A stretch of 27,390 nucleotides of DNA from a virus, in IMG/VR virus record IMGVR_UViG_3300035670_001051, positions 1-27,390 of that record; one strand, written 5' to 3'. Position 1 is the first letter of the stretch, and each line of letters starts with the position of its first letter. The translations under genes were made by a program, and so were the position numbers. Under the pieces are notes generated by a model. It was not told the DNA's origin. It was given only the letters and a program-made list of their open reading frames with translations, and ran no database searches. This document shows, piece after piece, positions 35 to 6,088 of the stretch.

Positions 35-334
35 CTACGGCTCGGCATTCCGTTCCTTCGCTGACTTACTGGCATGGCAGGAATTGCACAAGGGTTGCAA
101 GTTATCGGCCGCCCAGAACTCACCACCTAAGCGCACGGGTTTAATGTGGTCCACCATCTGAGCCAGTGTAACCAAACCAACGGCATCGCATGCAGCGCAC
201 AGGGGAGAGGATTGCAACACCAAAGCGCGGACGTTGCGCCATTGGGTTGTATTATATCGCGGCTCGATGTATGAACCTTTGACGTATTGGCGTGGCCTCT
301 TGCCTCCTTGTTTTGGTTTATTTATTGTTGGCAT
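35..334 (-). CDS. HNH endonuclease (packaging-associated)
   Basis: This 99-aa protein is a probable metal-dependent DNA nuclease of the HNH family. Two CxxC pairs (C46/C49 and C83/C86) frame the D62-H63 pair and N78, which fits an HNH zinc-ribbon fold. The open frame extends upstream to 454, but I chose the ATG at 332-334. The protein then starts MPTINKPKQGG, followed by a basic segment, and overlaps the upstream gene by only 13 bp. HNH proteins beside the small terminase are needed for cos cleavage in HK97-like phages. If the window closes into a circle, the next gene on this strand is the small terminase, which supports that role. Family call is firm; the packaging role is inferred. Confidence 0.85.
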   Translation of the reverse strand: MPTINKPKQGGKRPRQYVKGSYIEPRYNTTQWRNVRALVLQSSPLCAACDAVGLVTLAQMVDHIKPVRLGGEFWAADNLQPLCNSCHASKSAKERNAEP

Positions 335-657
335 TGCAGTAGTAGTTTGAAGTCGTCCAATGAACGGACTAGGTGGTAAGCGAATCCACAATCCTGCACA
401 CGCTGAGCAAATGCTTTCTGCTCGTCTGATTGTATCCCTGTGGCTGTCTTGCATTCAACGAACAGCAGGCGACCAAAGTAAATAACGATTAAATCCGACG
501 CCCCAGGTGTCAACCCTGTCGCCTTCATGAGCATGGCTGTCCGCTTATCTCTGAGCCCCCCGTTTGGTATACTAAAGATTAAACAATCCTTATATTTTAT
601 TTGGAAATTGTTTTTGTAATGTAGAAAAATTTGTTGTTGTATTTTATCTTCTGTCAT
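322..657 (-). CDS. VRR-NUC domain nuclease
   Basis: This 111-aa protein matches the VRR-NUC branch of the PD-(D/E)xK nucleases. Visible motifs are PNGG at about 31-34, PGASDL at 51-56 (catalytic Asp) and a VECKT segment near 67-71 (the ExK), then a conserved QSDEQ stretch. VRR-NUC proteins act on branched or junction DNA. Many phages carry a stand-alone copy next to replicative helicases, as here, downstream of the primase-helicase. It is probably a replication or recombination intermediate resolvase. A promoter-like element and two tandem 11-bp repeats lie just upstream. The gene overlaps the HNH gene by 13 bp. Confidence 0.88.
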   Translation of the reverse strand: MTEDKIQQQIFLHYKNNFQIKYKDCLIFSIPNGGLRDKRTAMLMKATGLTPGASDLIVIYFGRLLFVECKTATGIQSDEQKAFAQRVQDCGFAYHLVRSLDDFKLLLQCQQ

Positions 658-665
658 ATTATTAG

Positions 666-673
666 CAAATATA
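666..673 (-). promoter_or_regulatory. TAnnTTTG promoter -7 element before VRR-NUC gene
   Basis: The minus strand reads TATATTTG, an exact match to the Bacteroidota -7 consensus TAnnTTTG, followed by 8 nt and the ATG of the VRR-NUC gene. No good -33 TTG is present at 17-23 nt. Instead two tandem copies of GGTGGTCAGAG (685-706) occupy the -15 to -40 region, which suggests activator binding or overlap with another DNA function. Confidence 0.5.
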
Positions 674-684
674 TCAAATTAGGC

Positions 685-926
685 GGTGGTCAGAGGGTGG
701 TCAGAGAAAAAAAGCTCTCTGACCACCTCTTAGGGCTTGCTATCACTGGGCTTAAGGCAAAAGGTGGTCAGGTGGTCAGAGAAAACTGAAGACTTTCCCA
801 GAACAGAAAAACACAAAAGGGAAAAATTGAAAATATATTTTTCTAGGGAAGTTATGTTTTTTGCGTGCCTCTCTGACCACCTTTGAGGTAAACCCTTACA
901 AACATTGGGCTGAGAGGTGGTCAGAG
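685..926. repeat. Cluster of 11-bp GGTGGTCAGAG repeats; candidate origin or activator region
   Basis: Six exact copies of GGTGGTCAGAG lie in the 284-bp gap between the primase-helicase and VRR-NUC genes. Four are direct (685-695, 696-706, 771-781, 916-926) and two inverted (717-727, 871-881). A partial copy GGTGGTCA (763-770) abuts the third direct copy. Copies 696-706 and 717-727 form a perfect 11-bp hairpin around an A-rich loop. The stretch 782-865 is strongly AT-rich. The arrangement resembles iterons beside an unwinding element. A 71-codon open frame (730-945, minus) covers part of the gap, but the repeats fall in different frames of it, so the conservation appears to be at the DNA level. 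Confidence 0.85.
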
Positions 927-941
927 AAAATGCGTTTTTTG

Positions 942-3104
942 TCATCTGCTTACTTTTACAACCGAATAGCAGCGCATAGTTGAGCCGTTCACCTTCCTTT
1001 TGACTTGTTCAAAGCCCAAATTTTTCATTTCCATCCCCAACTTTCGCGTGTCAAAAATGCGCTGCTGGCTGTTCGTTTCAAGATATATTTTTAACTCTGT
1101 GTTTGTTAAATAATCGCAATAATCCCCATATTGAGGCACACGAAAATATTGGTTTATTAATTCCGCTTCAAAATTAATAGCGTTAAATTCGGTGCTATTT
1201 TCTGCAAGTTGTAGTATATCTTCACTGCTTAGGTGCCAGTTGAAACCTGCCTGATAGAGGTCGTAAAAAGCCATAAACAAAGCAGATTTGTCTATTGAAT
1301 TGTAGCGAGCGTGGTCGATGCTCAGGACGTTAATAGGCAGTATTCGGCGGTTGCCTGTTGGATCACTGATGAGCCCCAAATCGTTTGTCGTACCTGCCAA
1401 TACTGCCAGCCGCTTCAAATCTCGGTGAGTGCGCCCATAAGGTAAGCGAATTGAAAAACTGGCTTTACTAGTCAACTCCTTAAATCGTTTGGCCTCCAGT
1501 TTGGATTTGCCCCCAAATTCATCGTCCATAATTATTAGCTTTTTGGTGAGCAAAATATCGTCATCCTTACCGCCGTCCAGTTTGCTCTCTGCGTAGTAGT
1601 TTGCCAATGGCTTGGGGAGTAGCCGCCGAAAGAACTCAGTTTTACCCGTATTTTGGCGCTCGCCTGCTAGGACAAGCACTAAAGGGGACGTATGGCCGTA
1701 AACACTGGCAATCATTCCAACGCCCCAATGTGTTAAGTATTTGGCAACGTGCGGCGTTGTTGTTTCGATGCAGGCCGCCAGTTCGTCGATGAGGGATTGG
1801 TTGCGCTGGATAGATTGATTTGCGTTAATAAAATCCTCAAATGGGTTATAATATCGTGTCAATTCCGAATAAATAACCCTGCAAAAAAATTCAAAACTTA
1901 TCTTATTGTCTGTCAATTCGGAGAAACGCAGATACATCGTATTTAGAGCCATATCGTCCAAAATCTTGGGGCGATTGTTGAAAAGTACAGAACGGTCCTC
2001 AATATCGGCCGTAATCGTGTTGTAGTGCAGCTGGTGATTGTTTTGCAGATACAACTGGCACAGCGCGACAGGCGTCTGCCCTGTGAGCTGCAGCGATACA
2101 TTGGCCTCAAATACTGCGGCAGCGGTCTCGCTAGCTTTCTCGACGTCCATTCCACTCAATCGCGCAATCTCAACAACCGACTCCTGAGCACGGCCTTGCT
2201 TTTTGGCCATCTTGGCAATATTCTCCAATTTCACGGCCTGCTGGCTTTTCAACTCAACACCTGCCTGCTTGGCGTAATAGTAAAAAGTGCCTATACCGAT
2301 TTTGCTCTGGCCTGTATCGCGGAGGCAATAATTGTACTGCCTATCTGCTTTGATATGGTCGTATTTGCTATTTTGCCCAGCTATGGCGTGGAAATAATCC
2401 CTACCCCGCTCTCCAAACTCTGAGGCCAGCGCAAAGCCAATATCTAGGTAGTTTTTGTACGCCCCCTCTGTCAAGTCATACCCGCCCCGACAAATCCTAT
2501 CAATGAGCTCGTCAAACTCGTTGCCAGTTAGCACTGTGTGCACTTGCTTGGGCTTGGTTTCCTTTTTTGGGTACTCCTTGAAGGTCTTAGATGCCTCGTT
2601 GGTGTATAGCAACGGATCATACGACAGAAAACGCAACCGGCTCACATTCTTACAACTCTGGTCTATCAGTTGCCCATAATTGCGGAAATAGTACTGCTTT
2701 AGCCCGTTAAACGCATCCAAATGCCGCTCTGGCTCAATCTTAACTAAGGCGGCCAATCCATTGCCAGAAACGGACAGCAGGGCCGAAAAAGTATAAGGAT
2801 CTTTGGCCAATTCAGATTTTAGCCGCTCCACATCCTCCACAGCGTCAAAGTCGATGCAAATAAGTCCTGAGTGCTGGATGAGGTTTGCATTGCTCACATT
2901 ATCCCGAAACACCCCCGATATCGTGACCGCTGGAATCCGCTGCTTTGCCTCGGCCTGCTCGTCCTTACTCAGTGCCTTGGTATTTCTGTACGCCTCAATC
3001 AGTGCCAAATGTTGCCCTGAGCGGACAAGTGCGAAATAATCCGCTATTGTAATGGTGTGGTGCTTTGCCGACTGTCTTATATTAGGCAGATAGGTTATTT
3101 GCAT
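942..3104 (-). CDS. Primase-helicase, BT4734-like N-terminus plus VirE-type P-loop helicase
   Basis: A 720-aa protein that probably primes and unwinds DNA for phage replication. The first ~180 residues match the BT4734-like primase/VirE N-terminal domain, with the acidic motif ICIDFDAVED, the SVSGNGLAALVKIE segment and KNVSRLRFLSYDP. A middle part (about 195-285) looks like a PriCT-type helical domain. The C-terminal half is a VirE/D5-like NTPase with Walker A GERQNTGKT near 479-487 and Walker B IIMDDE near 525. This fusion is characteristic of Bacteroidota mobile elements and phages. The start overlaps the upstream 58-aa gene by 10 bp. Its stop overlaps the ATG of a doubtful small frame. Confidence 0.92.
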   Translation of the reverse strand: MQITYLPNIRQSAKHHTITIADYFALVRSGQHLALIEAYRNTKALSKDEQAEAKQRIPAVTISGVFRDNVSNANLIQHSGLICIDFDAVEDVERLKSELAKDPYTFSALLSVSGNGLAALVKIEPERHLDAFNGLKQYYFRNYGQLIDQSCKNVSRLRFLSYDPLLYTNEASKTFKEYPKKETKPKQVHTVLTGNEFDELIDRICRGGYDLTEGAYKNYLDIGFALASEFGERGRDYFHAIAGQNSKYDHIKADRQYNYCLRDTGQSKIGIGTFYYYAKQAGVELKSQQAVKLENIAKMAKKQGRAQESVVEIARLSGMDVEKASETAAAVFEANVSLQLTGQTPVALCQLYLQNNHQLHYNTITADIEDRSVLFNNRPKILDDMALNTMYLRFSELTDNKISFEFFCRVIYSELTRYYNPFEDFINANQSIQRNQSLIDELAACIETTTPHVAKYLTHWGVGMIASVYGHTSPLVLVLAGERQNTGKTEFFRRLLPKPLANYYAESKLDGGKDDDILLTKKLIIMDDEFGGKSKLEAKRFKELTSKASFSIRLPYGRTHRDLKRLAVLAGTTNDLGLISDPTGNRRILPINVLSIDHARYNSIDKSALFMAFYDLYQAGFNWHLSSEDILQLAENSTEFNAINFEAELINQYFRVPQYGDYCDYLTNTELKIYLETNSQQRIFDTRKLGMEMKNLGFEQVKRKVNGSTMRCYSVVKVSR

Positions 3105-3271
3105 ATCGTAATTTTAAGCAGGTGCTCAGTCAACGTGCAGAGTAGTTGCCCGTTCAGTTTAGCGTCGCGAATATAGTCGCCATTTTCATCGTGCAGATGG
3201 ATGGCTTTAATCAGTATGCCGTTGGGCGTAACTTCAACGTGCGCAATGCGTGCGTGTGTTGGTTTGCTCAT
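3095..3271 (-). CDS. Small conserved-looking protein, 58 aa
   Basis: This gene starts ATG at 3271 (MSKPTHARIAHVEVTPNG) and ends TAA at 3095. Its start overlaps the stop of the 73-aa gene as ATGA, and its end overlaps the primase-helicase start by 10 bp. That tight packing on both sides is the best evidence it is real. The protein alternates short strands (VEVTPNGILIKAIHLHDENGDY) and looks like a small beta-sheet protein. No signal peptide, membrane segment or known motif is visible. Translational coupling to the primase-helicase suggests a replication accessory role, but I do not recognise the family. Confidence 0.7.
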   Translation of the reverse strand: MSKPTHARIAHVEVTPNGILIKAIHLHDENGDYIRDAKLNGQLLCTLTEHLLKITICK

Positions 3272-3489
3272 AACAACTTTTCATTACCCTCACCTAACTT
3301 GATAAAACCACTGTCCTTATTTGAGCCAGTTGCCTTAATAAAATCTATCTCAATCTTTGCCGAATTGATAATTACCTGCCCCACGTCGGCCATTGCCTTG
3401 GCGGTTTGTATGTCAATATCACCATCCTTTAAGCGCTCAAGCGCCTCAAATAAGTGATCTCTCAAATCATTAATTTTGTTGCGTGCCAT
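3268..3489 (-). CDS. Hypothetical helical protein, 73 aa
   Basis: A 73-aa, mostly helical, highly charged protein starting MARNKINDLRDHLFEALERL. Its regular LRDHLFEALERLKDGDIDIQ pattern suggests two amphipathic helices, and there is no membrane segment or metal-binding motif. It overlaps the HNH gene upstream by 20 bp and the 58-aa gene downstream by ATGA. I recall similar short proteins in replication modules of Bacteroidota phages, but no function is known to me. A DNA-binding or adaptor role is possible and unproven. Confidence 0.75.
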   Translation of the reverse strand: MARNKINDLRDHLFEALERLKDGDIDIQTAKAMADVGQVIINSAKIEIDFIKATGSNKDSGFIKLGEGNEKLL

Positions 3490-4075
3490 TTTTTTCTAAT
3501 TGGTTAATTTTTCGTGTGATACTTCTTTTAATACTTAATACTTCCCTCAGTTCCTGGGGTAGATTTTTGATGTTGTTGCGCCTCATATGCTCGTGGCGGT
3601 CGATGAGCTCAAGATTGTCCAGCGTGATGTTGGCCTTGTTTTTGTCTTTAAACACGACAAACAACCCATTGGGTACTGGGCCGTTAGCGGATTCCCAAAG
3701 CAATACGTGCACAAACTTAAAACCTTGCTCTGTCTTTTCAACCAGGTAACCATCGCGCAAACTACGGTAACCTATCGGCTTGGTGTTATGCGGTGCTTGC
3801 CCCTTTTTAAATTGGGTTTCAATTCCGCCAATCATAACGCCTTTTGTGCCTTTGTTCCAGCTTGTCATCCCTTTGCGGAATTGTGTGCGTGGGTAGCCTT
3901 TGTAATTTTGTCGGTAGTAATCCATCAAAAACTCCTGGTCTTTTTTCAGTCCCAAATGTTGCGCCTTATCATAAATTTGGCGGTTGGTTTTGTTTAATTT
4001 CTCGCCGATCTCCCTGGTAATCATTTTAGGGTACAAAATCCGCAGCTGCTCGATTTCTTCTTCTGTCCACCTCAT
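3470..4075 (-). CDS. HNH endonuclease with N-terminal HTH, homing-type
   Basis: A 201-aa protein. Residues 1-45 (MRWTEEEIEQLRILYP, then REIGEKLNKTNRQIYDKAQ) form a Myb/HTH-like DNA-binding segment. The middle carries short basic repeats of the form FRKG/FKKG-Q (66-97). The C-terminal part is an HNH_3-type nuclease core: VHVLLWE around H123, then N149 in KANITLDNLELIDRHEH with H161. This order matches phage free-standing HNH endonucleases, which often spread as homing elements. It sits inside the replication operon, overlaps the next gene, and shows no sign of breaking its neighbours, so it may instead be a resident gene. The nuclease call is strong; homing is inferred. Confidence 0.87.
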   Translation of the reverse strand: MRWTEEEIEQLRILYPKMITREIGEKLNKTNRQIYDKAQHLGLKKDQEFLMDYYRQNYKGYPRTQFRKGMTSWNKGTKGVMIGGIETQFKKGQAPHNTKPIGYRSLRDGYLVEKTEQGFKFVHVLLWESANGPVPNGLFVVFKDKNKANITLDNLELIDRHEHMRRNNIKNLPQELREVLSIKRSITRKINQLEKNGTQQN

Positions 4076-4266: not shown

Positions 4267-5654
4267 AATTTAACGATAAAATTTTTAACTGCGCCACCCT
4301 CGGCGAATTCTCTCTCTCTGCGGTTGGTATAGCCCTCGGTGTACCCCTTAGACCTCCAGAATCTTTTTAACTCTGTGTAGTTTGCATAATACAGCACCCG
4401 CTCAATAAATGCCTGCTTGTAGTTCTTTCGGCTTTTAAGTTCCCATAAATCTGCTGGCGTTTTTGCAATCTCAAAGAGATAGCGGCCGTTGAGTTTTTCG
4501 TATGCCATCAATTCCAAACTACCGCGCTCGGCTTTCTTTTCCGTTGCAAATACCTCACCGCAAAACTCGCAGAAACGAGCGGAGGCGTAGAGCACAGCAC
4601 CGCAACACGGGCAATCCTTTACAGGTGCCACGCCTTGGCCTTTCTTTTGCTCCATCCCAGCGAATGCCTTGCCCCAATCCCTTGCCTCCTGCCAAAATCC
4701 TAAGCGGTGCACATTCTCTCCAAAGTCGAGGATTGTAAACTCTTTTTTACTCGCCGTCGGCCGTGATCCGCGCCCAACCATTTGCAGCCATAGCGCTACG
4801 GATTTGGTGGCTCTGTTCACAACTACAACCTCAATATCTGGGCAGTCGAAACCAGTGGTAGCAATTCCGCAGTTTACGAGGATTCCATATTTGCTGGCGA
4901 CAAATTCCTCTATTAGGTCAGCCCTTTCTATTGCGCTTTGTTTTGAGTGAACGCAATAAACCCTACCCTCTCCCAACTCCTGCGCAAATGATTTGGCGGT
5001 GTTTATACTGGCCTCAATATTCACACAAAAAACAATCGCCTTCTTATCCTTCCACCTTTTGCAAAATTCCTGCACAACGCCCTCATAAACCTTGGGACGA
5101 TTAAAAGCATCGTCTAGCCCCTGCGCTGTAAACTCGCCCATTCTGCTAGCAATCTTTGACGTGTCCACTGGGTGCATTGCGTAGGTAATCGGGTTGCACA
5201 AATAACCCTGTGCAATCAATTCGCCAATGCCTACCGAGTTAATCAGTTTGCCATAGCTTTGCGCCATCGGTGGCTTACTTACTGGCGTTGCAGTTGCTCC
5301 AATTACAAAGCCATCAAAGCCCTCCAAAATTTTGCGAAAATTTCCGATGTGCGCCTCATCAATAACAAGCAAATCGTAACTGCCTAGCACTACCACGCCC
5401 CGCTTAATTTGATTGTTAAGCGTCTCTACCATCAAGATATCGCAGCGGTTTAGTTTGCCTGCTTGGCTGAGCAATTCCCTGCGATGGGTAACGATGGCCA
5501 CCCTGCGCCCCTTCTCCAGTACACGGCGCACTATCTCAGAAAAAACAACCGTCTTACCTGCTCCAGTTGGCAGGCACAACACAACCCTTTTACTGTCCTT
5601 AAACGCCGCCCGAATCTCATCGACTGCGCTCTCTTGGTATGGCCTTAATTGCAT
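4263..5654 (-). CDS. SF2 DEAD/DEAH-box DNA helicase with C-terminal zinc ribbon
   Basis: A 463-aa superfamily 2 helicase, ATP-dependent. Motif I is LPTGAGKT (29-36), motif II is DEAH (99-102), motif III is GATATP (119-124) and motif VI is QMVGRGSRP (291-299), with the Q-motif-like LRPYQ at the N-terminus. A cysteine cluster DCPCCG (about 347-352) with RFCEFCG (361-366) forms a probable zinc ribbon after the helicase core. The family resembles phage UvsW/RadD-like helicases, which remodel forks and recombination intermediates. It lies between the DnaA-like protein and the HNH gene, overlapping the former by 10 bp. Helicase identity is secure; the exact substrate is unknown. Confidence 0.93.
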   Translation of the reverse strand: MQLRPYQESAVDEIRAAFKDSKRVVLCLPTGAGKTVVFSEIVRRVLEKGRRVAIVTHRRELLSQAGKLNRCDILMVETLNNQIKRGVVVLGSYDLLVIDEAHIGNFRKILEGFDGFVIGATATPVSKPPMAQSYGKLINSVGIGELIAQGYLCNPITYAMHPVDTSKIASRMGEFTAQGLDDAFNRPKVYEGVVQEFCKRWKDKKAIVFCVNIEASINTAKSFAQELGEGRVYCVHSKQSAIERADLIEEFVASKYGILVNCGIATTGFDCPDIEVVVVNRATKSVALWLQMVGRGSRPTASKKEFTILDFGENVHRLGFWQEARDWGKAFAGMEQKKGQGVAPVKDCPCCGAVLYASARFCEFCGEVFATEKKAERGSLELMAYEKLNGRYLFEIAKTPADLWELKSRKNYKQAFIERVLYYANYTELKRFWRSKGYTEGYTNRREREFAEGGAVKNFIVKL

Positions 5655-6088
5655 AACCCCAACAGCTCCTTTACTGTGTTGTAAATTCTGCGATAGTCCT
5701 TGTTATACTCCAAGTAGTCGCGGCTGACGTTGTAACTATTGATAGCGGTCGAGTGATCACGCCCCAACCTGCGGCCGATTTCAGAATACCTGAGCCCGTA
5801 GTGTTGGCGTAGAATGTAAACCAACAAATGACGCGCGTCTTTTATATCTCCCTCTCTGCTAGTGGATAAAATCTGCGCAGGGGTGACATCGCACGTCAGA
5901 CAAACCGACTGCATCACCTTGGCGAAATCGTCCATCTTACTGGTAAACTTAATCTGCGGATTGAGTAGCTCATTTTTTAGGCGTGCAATAGTTTTCTCAT
6001 ACTTTGCCGTCATTGAATAAAAGCGCATCTGCAAATCCTTATACTCCCTTTTCGCTCTGCTGTATTGTTGTAAATAATCCGTAGCCAT
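5645..6088 (-). CDS. DnaA domain-IV-like DNA-binding protein
   Basis: A 147-aa protein. The N-terminal ~45 residues are a charged coiled coil. From about residue 60 it matches the DnaA C-terminal DNA-binding domain: a DVTPAQILSTSREGDIKDARHLL stretch, then the signature YSEIGRRLGRDHSTAINS (about 101-118). The AAA+ ATPase of DnaA is absent, so this is a stand-alone domain IV with a coiled-coil handle. Such proteins occur in phages, where they may recognise the phage origin or compete with host DnaA. No perfect TTATCCACA DnaA box was noticed in this window, so its target may be different, for example the 11-bp repeats at 685-926 (inference). Confidence 0.85.
   Translation of the reverse strand: MATDYLQQYSRAKREYKDLQMRFYSMTAKYEKTIARLKNELLNPQIKFTSKMDDFAKVMQSVCLTCDVTPAQILSTSREGDIKDARHLLVYILRQHYGLRYSEIGRRLGRDHSTAINSYNVSRDYLEYNKDYRRIYNTVKELLGLCN

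Follow-up and report, generated by a model that had tools for sequence, protein, structure and literature searches.

Does a cluster of 11-bp repeats beside a phage primase-helicase gene mark the place where replication starts, and which protein would read it? The question is raised by the virus record IMGVR_UViG_3300035670_001051 of IMG/VR, analyzed over its positions 1 to 27,390 (hereafter the window, 27,390 nt), in which copies of GGTGGTCAGAG lie at 685-926 between the genes for a 720-aa primase-helicase (942-3104, minus strand) and for a VRR-NUC protein (322-657, minus strand). The original prediction had offered either an origin, i.e., iterons plus an unwinding element, or activator sites for neighboring genes, with a DnaA-like protein as a natural binder. 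Judging by comparison with related phages, we consider it very probable that the cluster is a phage replication origin, that the wing of the primase-helicase reads the iterons 3' of its own gene, and that wing and origin together are exchanged as a specificity cassette.

All copies of the repeat lie in the 284-nt gap (658-941) between the primase-helicase stop codon and the VRR-NUC start. A recount over the whole record confirmed the predicted six exact copies and one partial copy in both orientations: copies 1 and 2 form a tandem pair (685-695 and 696-706, plus strand), copy 3 is inverted (717-727, minus strand), copy 4 (771-781, plus strand) stands in tandem with the partial copy (763-770, plus strand), which retains the GGTGGTCA core (GGTGGTCAG followed by GT), copy 5 is again inverted (871-881, minus strand) and copy 6 (916-926, plus strand) is closest to the primase stop codon. 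Thus, four exact copies and the partial one are on the plus strand and two on the minus strand. No exact copy was found elsewhere in the window; with up to two mismatches allowed, there are 12 matches against 3.9 expected, a number reached in 0 of 100 shuffles. In a record-wide scan of 250-nt intervals, no 11-mer reached three copies except at the cluster, and among 1000 first-order resamplings of 658-941 the top 11-mer copy number was at most 3 in 999 and 8 in one. The 71-aa frame that runs over the cluster (730-945) has no Pfam match, and the repeats are intergenic, unlike those of lambda-type origins, in which the iterons lie within the initiator gene.

The copies form two groups, one of five (including the partial copy; 685-781) and one of two (871-926), on either side of an AT-rich stretch (782-865) that had also been predicted and is real, with 70% AT compared to 53% record-wide; its best 80-bp segment ranks within the lowest 0.9% of the record by stability. 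This core is a candidate unwinding element. In an alignment of 15 origins, one arm of the core, GACTTTCCCAGAAC (791-804), is largely kept across iteron types, and its imperfect inverted partner, TTCTAGGGAAGTTATG (841-856), is kept in most of them, the boundaries of both arms having been placed by eye. The GC skew around the cluster, suggested as a check, was computed and is uninformative because of the one-strand gene bias: almost all genes share the same orientation, and the cumulative maximum is at 2104. Another AT-rich segment (568-647), at the start of the VRR-NUC gene and just outside the iterons on that side, is a second unwinding candidate.

Related loci were collected by a protein search of viral contigs (53 loci), a profile search (78, many on the same contigs) and a species-genome search (7); 51, 29 and 1 of these, respectively, were used together with the window, which gives 82 loci, 80 of them with sufficient 3' sequence. 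When the 450 nt 3' of the primase gene are scored for their best exact repeat, 67 of the 80 loci exceed all 40 shuffles of that stretch; scored likewise, the 450 nt on the 5' side reach at most 8.1, inside the range of the shuffle maxima. Given that the loci are related and some near-identical, these 67 do not represent 67 independent events. In most close relatives, the VRR-NUC gene adjoins the array. According to the original prediction, absence of the repeats from relatives that share the replication genes would speak against an origin; many of them do lack the exact 11-mer, but an array of different sequence occupies the same place. Position, layout and conservation among relatives support the proposal of iterons plus an unwinding element.

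The arrays can be classified by their repeat units: type A (the window) has CTCTGACCACC, A' has CTCTGTACACC, B has ACCTGTTACA, C has CAGTGTAACC with TGTAAC, D has GAAAGTGTAGA with CTGTAGA and E has CAGTGTAACC with CTCTGTAACC, and several further units are found in distant relatives. Two A' relatives carry GGTGTACAGAG in place of GGTGGTCAGAG, with the same two-base change at all seven repeat positions, so that even the equivalent of the partial copy varies together with the full ones; neighboring A' units overlap by one base. Relative to the window primase, those of the two A' loci show 93 and 95% identity. Among 13 A and two A' primases, 90 residues are variable and only two separate the types: at 702, type A has lysine and A' arginine, and at 719, type A has alanine or serine and A' asparagine. 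Both are located at the wing end of the protein, and the chance that both diagnostic sites fall among the five variable sites of residues 690-720 is 0.0025. The C and D primases differ at four diagnostic sites, 213, 703, 707 and 709, the last three in the wing region. The core, by comparison, is nearly common to A and A' phages despite their different iterons. A search with the core sequence recovered 14 stretches, 13 of them on family contigs already typed A or A'; the 14th (L166) was discarded as a chance match in a coding region, and none of the 14 combines this core with a third iteron type.

The fixed differences between types A and A' are confined to a short segment. Counted in 60-nt windows from the end of the primase gene, fixed nucleotide differences between A (11 loci) and A' (two loci) number one in total from -1200 to -121, one from -120 to -61, three from -60 to -1, 47 from 0 to 299 and 0 from 300 to 719, i.e., they lie in the terminal 60-120 nt of the gene and in the ~300 nt of the candidate origin. 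Between C (three loci) and D (four loci), the corresponding numbers are six, four, six and 119, followed by one in 300-479 and a renewed rise past 480. Pairwise identities follow this pattern: L013 (A) and L025 (A') share 92.5% of the gene body and 76.8% of the origin, compared to 81.3 and 85.6% for the window and L013, both of type A. L029 (E) matches L027 and L035, also of type E, at 100% in the last 120 nt of the gene and 97.6% in the origin, with bodies at 84.3 and 87.3%, whereas its gene body is nearer to that of L030 (D; 89.0%); type B pairs and several between-type values of 100% or NA, artefacts of end-gap trimming, are left out of this comparison. From these identities, gene end and origin appear to move as a unit. 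Furthermore, among 29 close relatives, iteron similarity correlates with wing similarity (rho 0.80) more than with helicase similarity (0.68), and the partial correlation is 0.57 for the wing given the helicase (p 0.001, the lowest value that 1000 permutations allow) and -0.11 for the helicase given the wing.

The protein to which this wing belongs, the proposed initiator, matches BT4734_N, PriCT_2 and VapE in Pfam, as well as PHROG 15962. An AlphaFold2 model of residues 560-720 predicts that residues 664-720 (945-1115, minus strand), the proposed iteron-binding domain, form a winged helix, with a helix at 686-695 and wing strands at 700-705 and 708-717; the wing (residues 700-717) is encoded at 954-1007 (minus strand), with codon 702 at 999-1001. 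The mean pLDDT (predicted local distance difference test) of the model is 78, about 80-93 in the domain and mostly <50 in model residues 1-25. The structural matches are led by RFX5 (Z 8.5) and site-bound RFX1 (Z 7.2), followed by the PrimPol of African swine fever virus (Z 6.8) and, among many winged helices that score alike, the origin-binding domain of P4 (1ka8; Z 6.0) and NrS-1 (Z 5.7), Z values below 8 possibly reflecting merely a common arrangement. A Foldseek search with the modelled domain gave no match with E <0.001, and phmmer of the C-terminal domain against the PDB gave nothing meaningful. RFX proteins occupy the major groove with the wing and the minor groove with helix 3 (PMC2533330, in excerpt); by analogy, this would fit a specificity-setting wing in the phage domain.

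From these data we infer binding, unwinding and origin activity in the following order. The wing of the C-terminal winged helix would recognize the GGTGGTCAGAG iterons on either side of the AT-rich core, helicase rings would assemble on both iteron groups, and these rings would then melt the core and prime DNA synthesis. Given that the reader, at the gene end, adjoins its sites in the next 300 nt, recombination would move both as one specificity cassette, and such exchange would leave close relatives with different iterons matched to different wings.

Sequences outside the typed loci show several variations on this theme. A reverse search with doubled GGTGGTCAGAG returned 16 contigs, 11 of which belong to this primase-helicase family. 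In the others, the doubled unit is found at the 3' end of a NrS-1-like primase gene (PF22763; L061:1574-1698), inside a gene with a DnaD_N match (L064:549-605), inside a gene with an HTH_36 match and a DnaD_N match just under the cut-off (L065:12733-12776), inside a gene weakly matching HxlR (L069:1626-1675) and on a contig with no initiator seen (L068). The primase of L061 has no sequence-level match to the C-terminal domain considered here, and a K-R pair noticed by eye in the C-terminal ends of P4 alpha and the L061 primase was dropped as evidence, there being no sequence-level domain match. A 10-mer search for A' repeats recovered the two A' contigs and five others; in one of the five (L159), the repeats lie in a 439-codon frame beside a frame that, by eye, resembles a DnaB-type helicase, and no initiator was seen by eye in the remaining four. 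In L008 (6370-6646), the far half of the candidate origin gives way to what seems to be primase-gene sequence in inverted orientation, perhaps through chimeric assembly. In the Flavobacterium phage mumin9-1 (L162:6199-6762), a nuclease-annotated gene (PF10544) separates a GGTTACC array from the primase gene and its short GGTTACC pair, and looks as if it had been inserted into the candidate origin.

Other explanations give the cluster a different reader or none. It could be an operator or activator cluster, not an origin, through which a phage regulator switches transcription of the VRR-NUC, HNH and terminase genes, a reading that we find decidedly improbable. The record does encode small helix-turn-helix (HTH) proteins, and the tandem copies at 685-706 lie directly behind TATATTTG (666-673, minus strand), a candidate -10 element of the VRR-NUC promoter conforming to TAnnTTTG, which we take to be a -10 consensus and which is found ~15 nt before the VRR-NUC start in 8 of 8 A/A' loci checked. 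However, TAnnTTTG is missing from the equivalent place in the five loci checked outside A/A' (B, C, D, E and L038), which retain the array, two groups of repeats around an AT-rich core over 242 bp are ill-suited to a single promoter, and the changes in the repeats track the primase wing. Activator sites alone, the alternative named in the original prediction, were therefore rejected; the part of that proposal that survives is the tandem pair beside the candidate -10 element in A/A' phages, where initiator binding could also affect the VRR-NUC promoter, and a dual role, with the initiator occupying the promoter, is conceivable. That the origin is read instead by the 147-aa DnaA-like protein or by host DnaA, with the primase arriving later, has in our estimate very little chance of being correct. 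This protein, encoded ~2.5 kb away (5645-6088), matches only DnaA domain IV (E 6.6e-16) and occurs in most of the loci whose flanks are long enough. Its sequence is nevertheless 100% identical between phages with different iterons (L087, type B, and L078 and L097, type A; L099, type B, and L083, type A; L091, type D, and L088, type C), no site in it separates A from A', and the DnaA-box consensus TTWTNCACA (at most one mismatch) occurs 48 times in the record against 68.7 expected, nowhere in 629-1048 and not in the iterons. Because it is identical across repeat types, the DnaA-like protein is probably not the reader; we rejected it in this role, and its nomination as the natural binder finds no support.

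A third explanation, that wing and iterons are associated by linkage only, within a neutral recombination tract and without recognition, appears to us unlikely. The two are adjacent, so that some co-inheritance is expected without any function, and fixed A/A' differences are not limited to the iterons (17 of 74 bp within them, 30 of 226 bp outside). Against it, the same two bases change at every iteron copy compared to four fixed differences in 91 core columns, the diagnostic residues are in the predicted wing, several type pairs share the same gene-side boundary, and linkage leaves the existence of the arrays unexplained. Several observations do weigh against an origin read by the primase wing. 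Thirteen of the 80 scored loci have no significant exact repeat 3' of the primase gene; among the loci scanned more widely, in L036 an eight-copy array lies ~1 kb further 3', in L122 (on the contig of L053) the array is 5' of the gene, in mumin9-1 it stands behind the next gene, and no array was found in L119 (on the contig of L052) or in the named phage phi46:1. The least stable 80 bp of the record are those at 568-647 (82% AT), not the core, and type A' is represented by two loci only. Over all 63 non-redundant loci, the global partial Mantel test is weak and ambiguous (wing partial 0.13, p 0.024), with the helicase doing equally well or better. Finally, hhalign of the C-terminal domain with P4 alpha gives a probability of 0.8, i.e., no sequence-level match.

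An origin read by the end of the adjacent initiator is of a kind that is already known from P4, from Staphylococcus aureus pathogenicity islands (SaPIs) and other phage-inducible chromosomal islands (PICIs), and from Cch2 of the staphylococcal cassette chromosome mec (SCCmec); what is new is the near-isogenic switch series with candidate residues, for which no prior account was found in the open-licence literature. As in P4- and PICI-type systems, the window combines a helicase core (the VapE domain) and a predicted C-terminal winged helix with an array directly 3' of the initiator gene and two iteron groups around an AT-rich region. P4 alpha is likewise a primase-helicase with a C-terminal winged-helix origin-binding domain, and type 1 repeats in both orientations lie directly 3' of its gene: alpha ends at 4636, and crr (4291-4590), with ten annotated type 1 repeats, is 46 nt 3' of it. 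The P4 unit is GGTGAACA(G), some copies being degenerate, with GGTGAACAGAGGTGAACAG in ori; the two middle bases, which are also the two changed in A', are its sole difference from the window unit. Given that the domains have no sequence-level match, this likeness may be convergence. Unlike the window, which represents a tailed phage, P4 is a satellite and has a separate ori far from alpha. In SaPIs and PICIs, the origin is directly 3' of the initiator gene, with two iteron sets flanking an AT-rich region (PMC6092414, in excerpt), and the C-terminal domain of SaPI Rep recognizes iterons downstream of its own gene (PMC7581432, in excerpt); the layout is the same as in the window, which differs in being a tailed phage with a BT4734_N/PriCT_2/VapE initiator. 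That layout has been described as common to PICIs and to no other known bacterial replicon (PMC6092414, in excerpt). In vitro, the isolated C-terminal domain of the Cch2 helicase binds AAGTG repeats that lie 3' of the helicase gene (PMC7581432, in excerpt); unlike the window, this system has a separate primase and only three iterons. In the PLEs of Vibrio cholerae, the DNA-binding domain of RepA and the origin have been swapped together between related elements, with an origin-directed nuclease (Odn) as the proposed selective force (PMC8263062, in excerpt); this initiator is a RepA_N protein without predicted primase or helicase (PMC7145576, in excerpt), the iterons are different, and the swapped part is the N-terminal domain. 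Closer to the window, the VapE helicase of the cultured Cellulophaga phage phi17:1 has a related C-terminal domain (hhalign 98.6%, E 5.6e-16; wing RKKVNG), and AGTGACCA/TGACCACC repeats, unannotated in the record, lie directly 3' of its gene (L163:5287-5720), although its primase domain (VirE N-domain) is in a separate gene. The pRN1 origin, a stem-loop, is also 3' of the replication gene (PMC4234260, in excerpt).

The remaining genes indicate the kind of virus involved. The record encodes a portal, head protease, major head protein, connectors, tail protein and both terminase subunits; with head, tail and terminase genes of its own, it represents a tailed phage and not a satellite, in contrast to PICIs, which need helper-phage particles. 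The best-matching named relatives infect Cellulophaga, Nonlabens/Persicivirga and Flavobacterium, so that the host is likely a member of the Bacteroidota. The VRR-NUC gene on the other flank of the candidate origin matches PHROG 824, with its Pfam match just under the cut-off. An HNH gene (3470-4075), between the primase and superfamily 2 (SF2) helicase genes, is variably present among close relatives (absent, e.g., from L075 and L078), like a mobile gene, and a 73-aa protein (3268-3489) matches phrog_2044 (RNA polymerase beta subunit; E 4.2e-17), a name that looks doubtful given how short the protein is.

A more far-reaching idea, which we regard as possible but would rather bet against, is that wing and iterons constitute an exchangeable address cassette whose boundary splits a single DNA-binding domain, that K702R, possibly together with A/S719N, would retarget the protein from GGTGGTCAGAG to GGTGTACAGAG, that the resulting compatibility groups would be selected by an origin-targeting agent (satellites, origin-directed nucleases or rival phages), and that the wing would predict the iteron as far as P4 alpha. 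The origins of most uncultured phages are unknown, and near-identical initiators with different iterons point to possible specificity residues. The exchange of the cassette resembles the PLE case, in which a nuclease against origins is thought to be the driving force (PMC8263062, in excerpt), and the presence of the PICI layout in tailed phages bears on the source of the replication modules of satellites.
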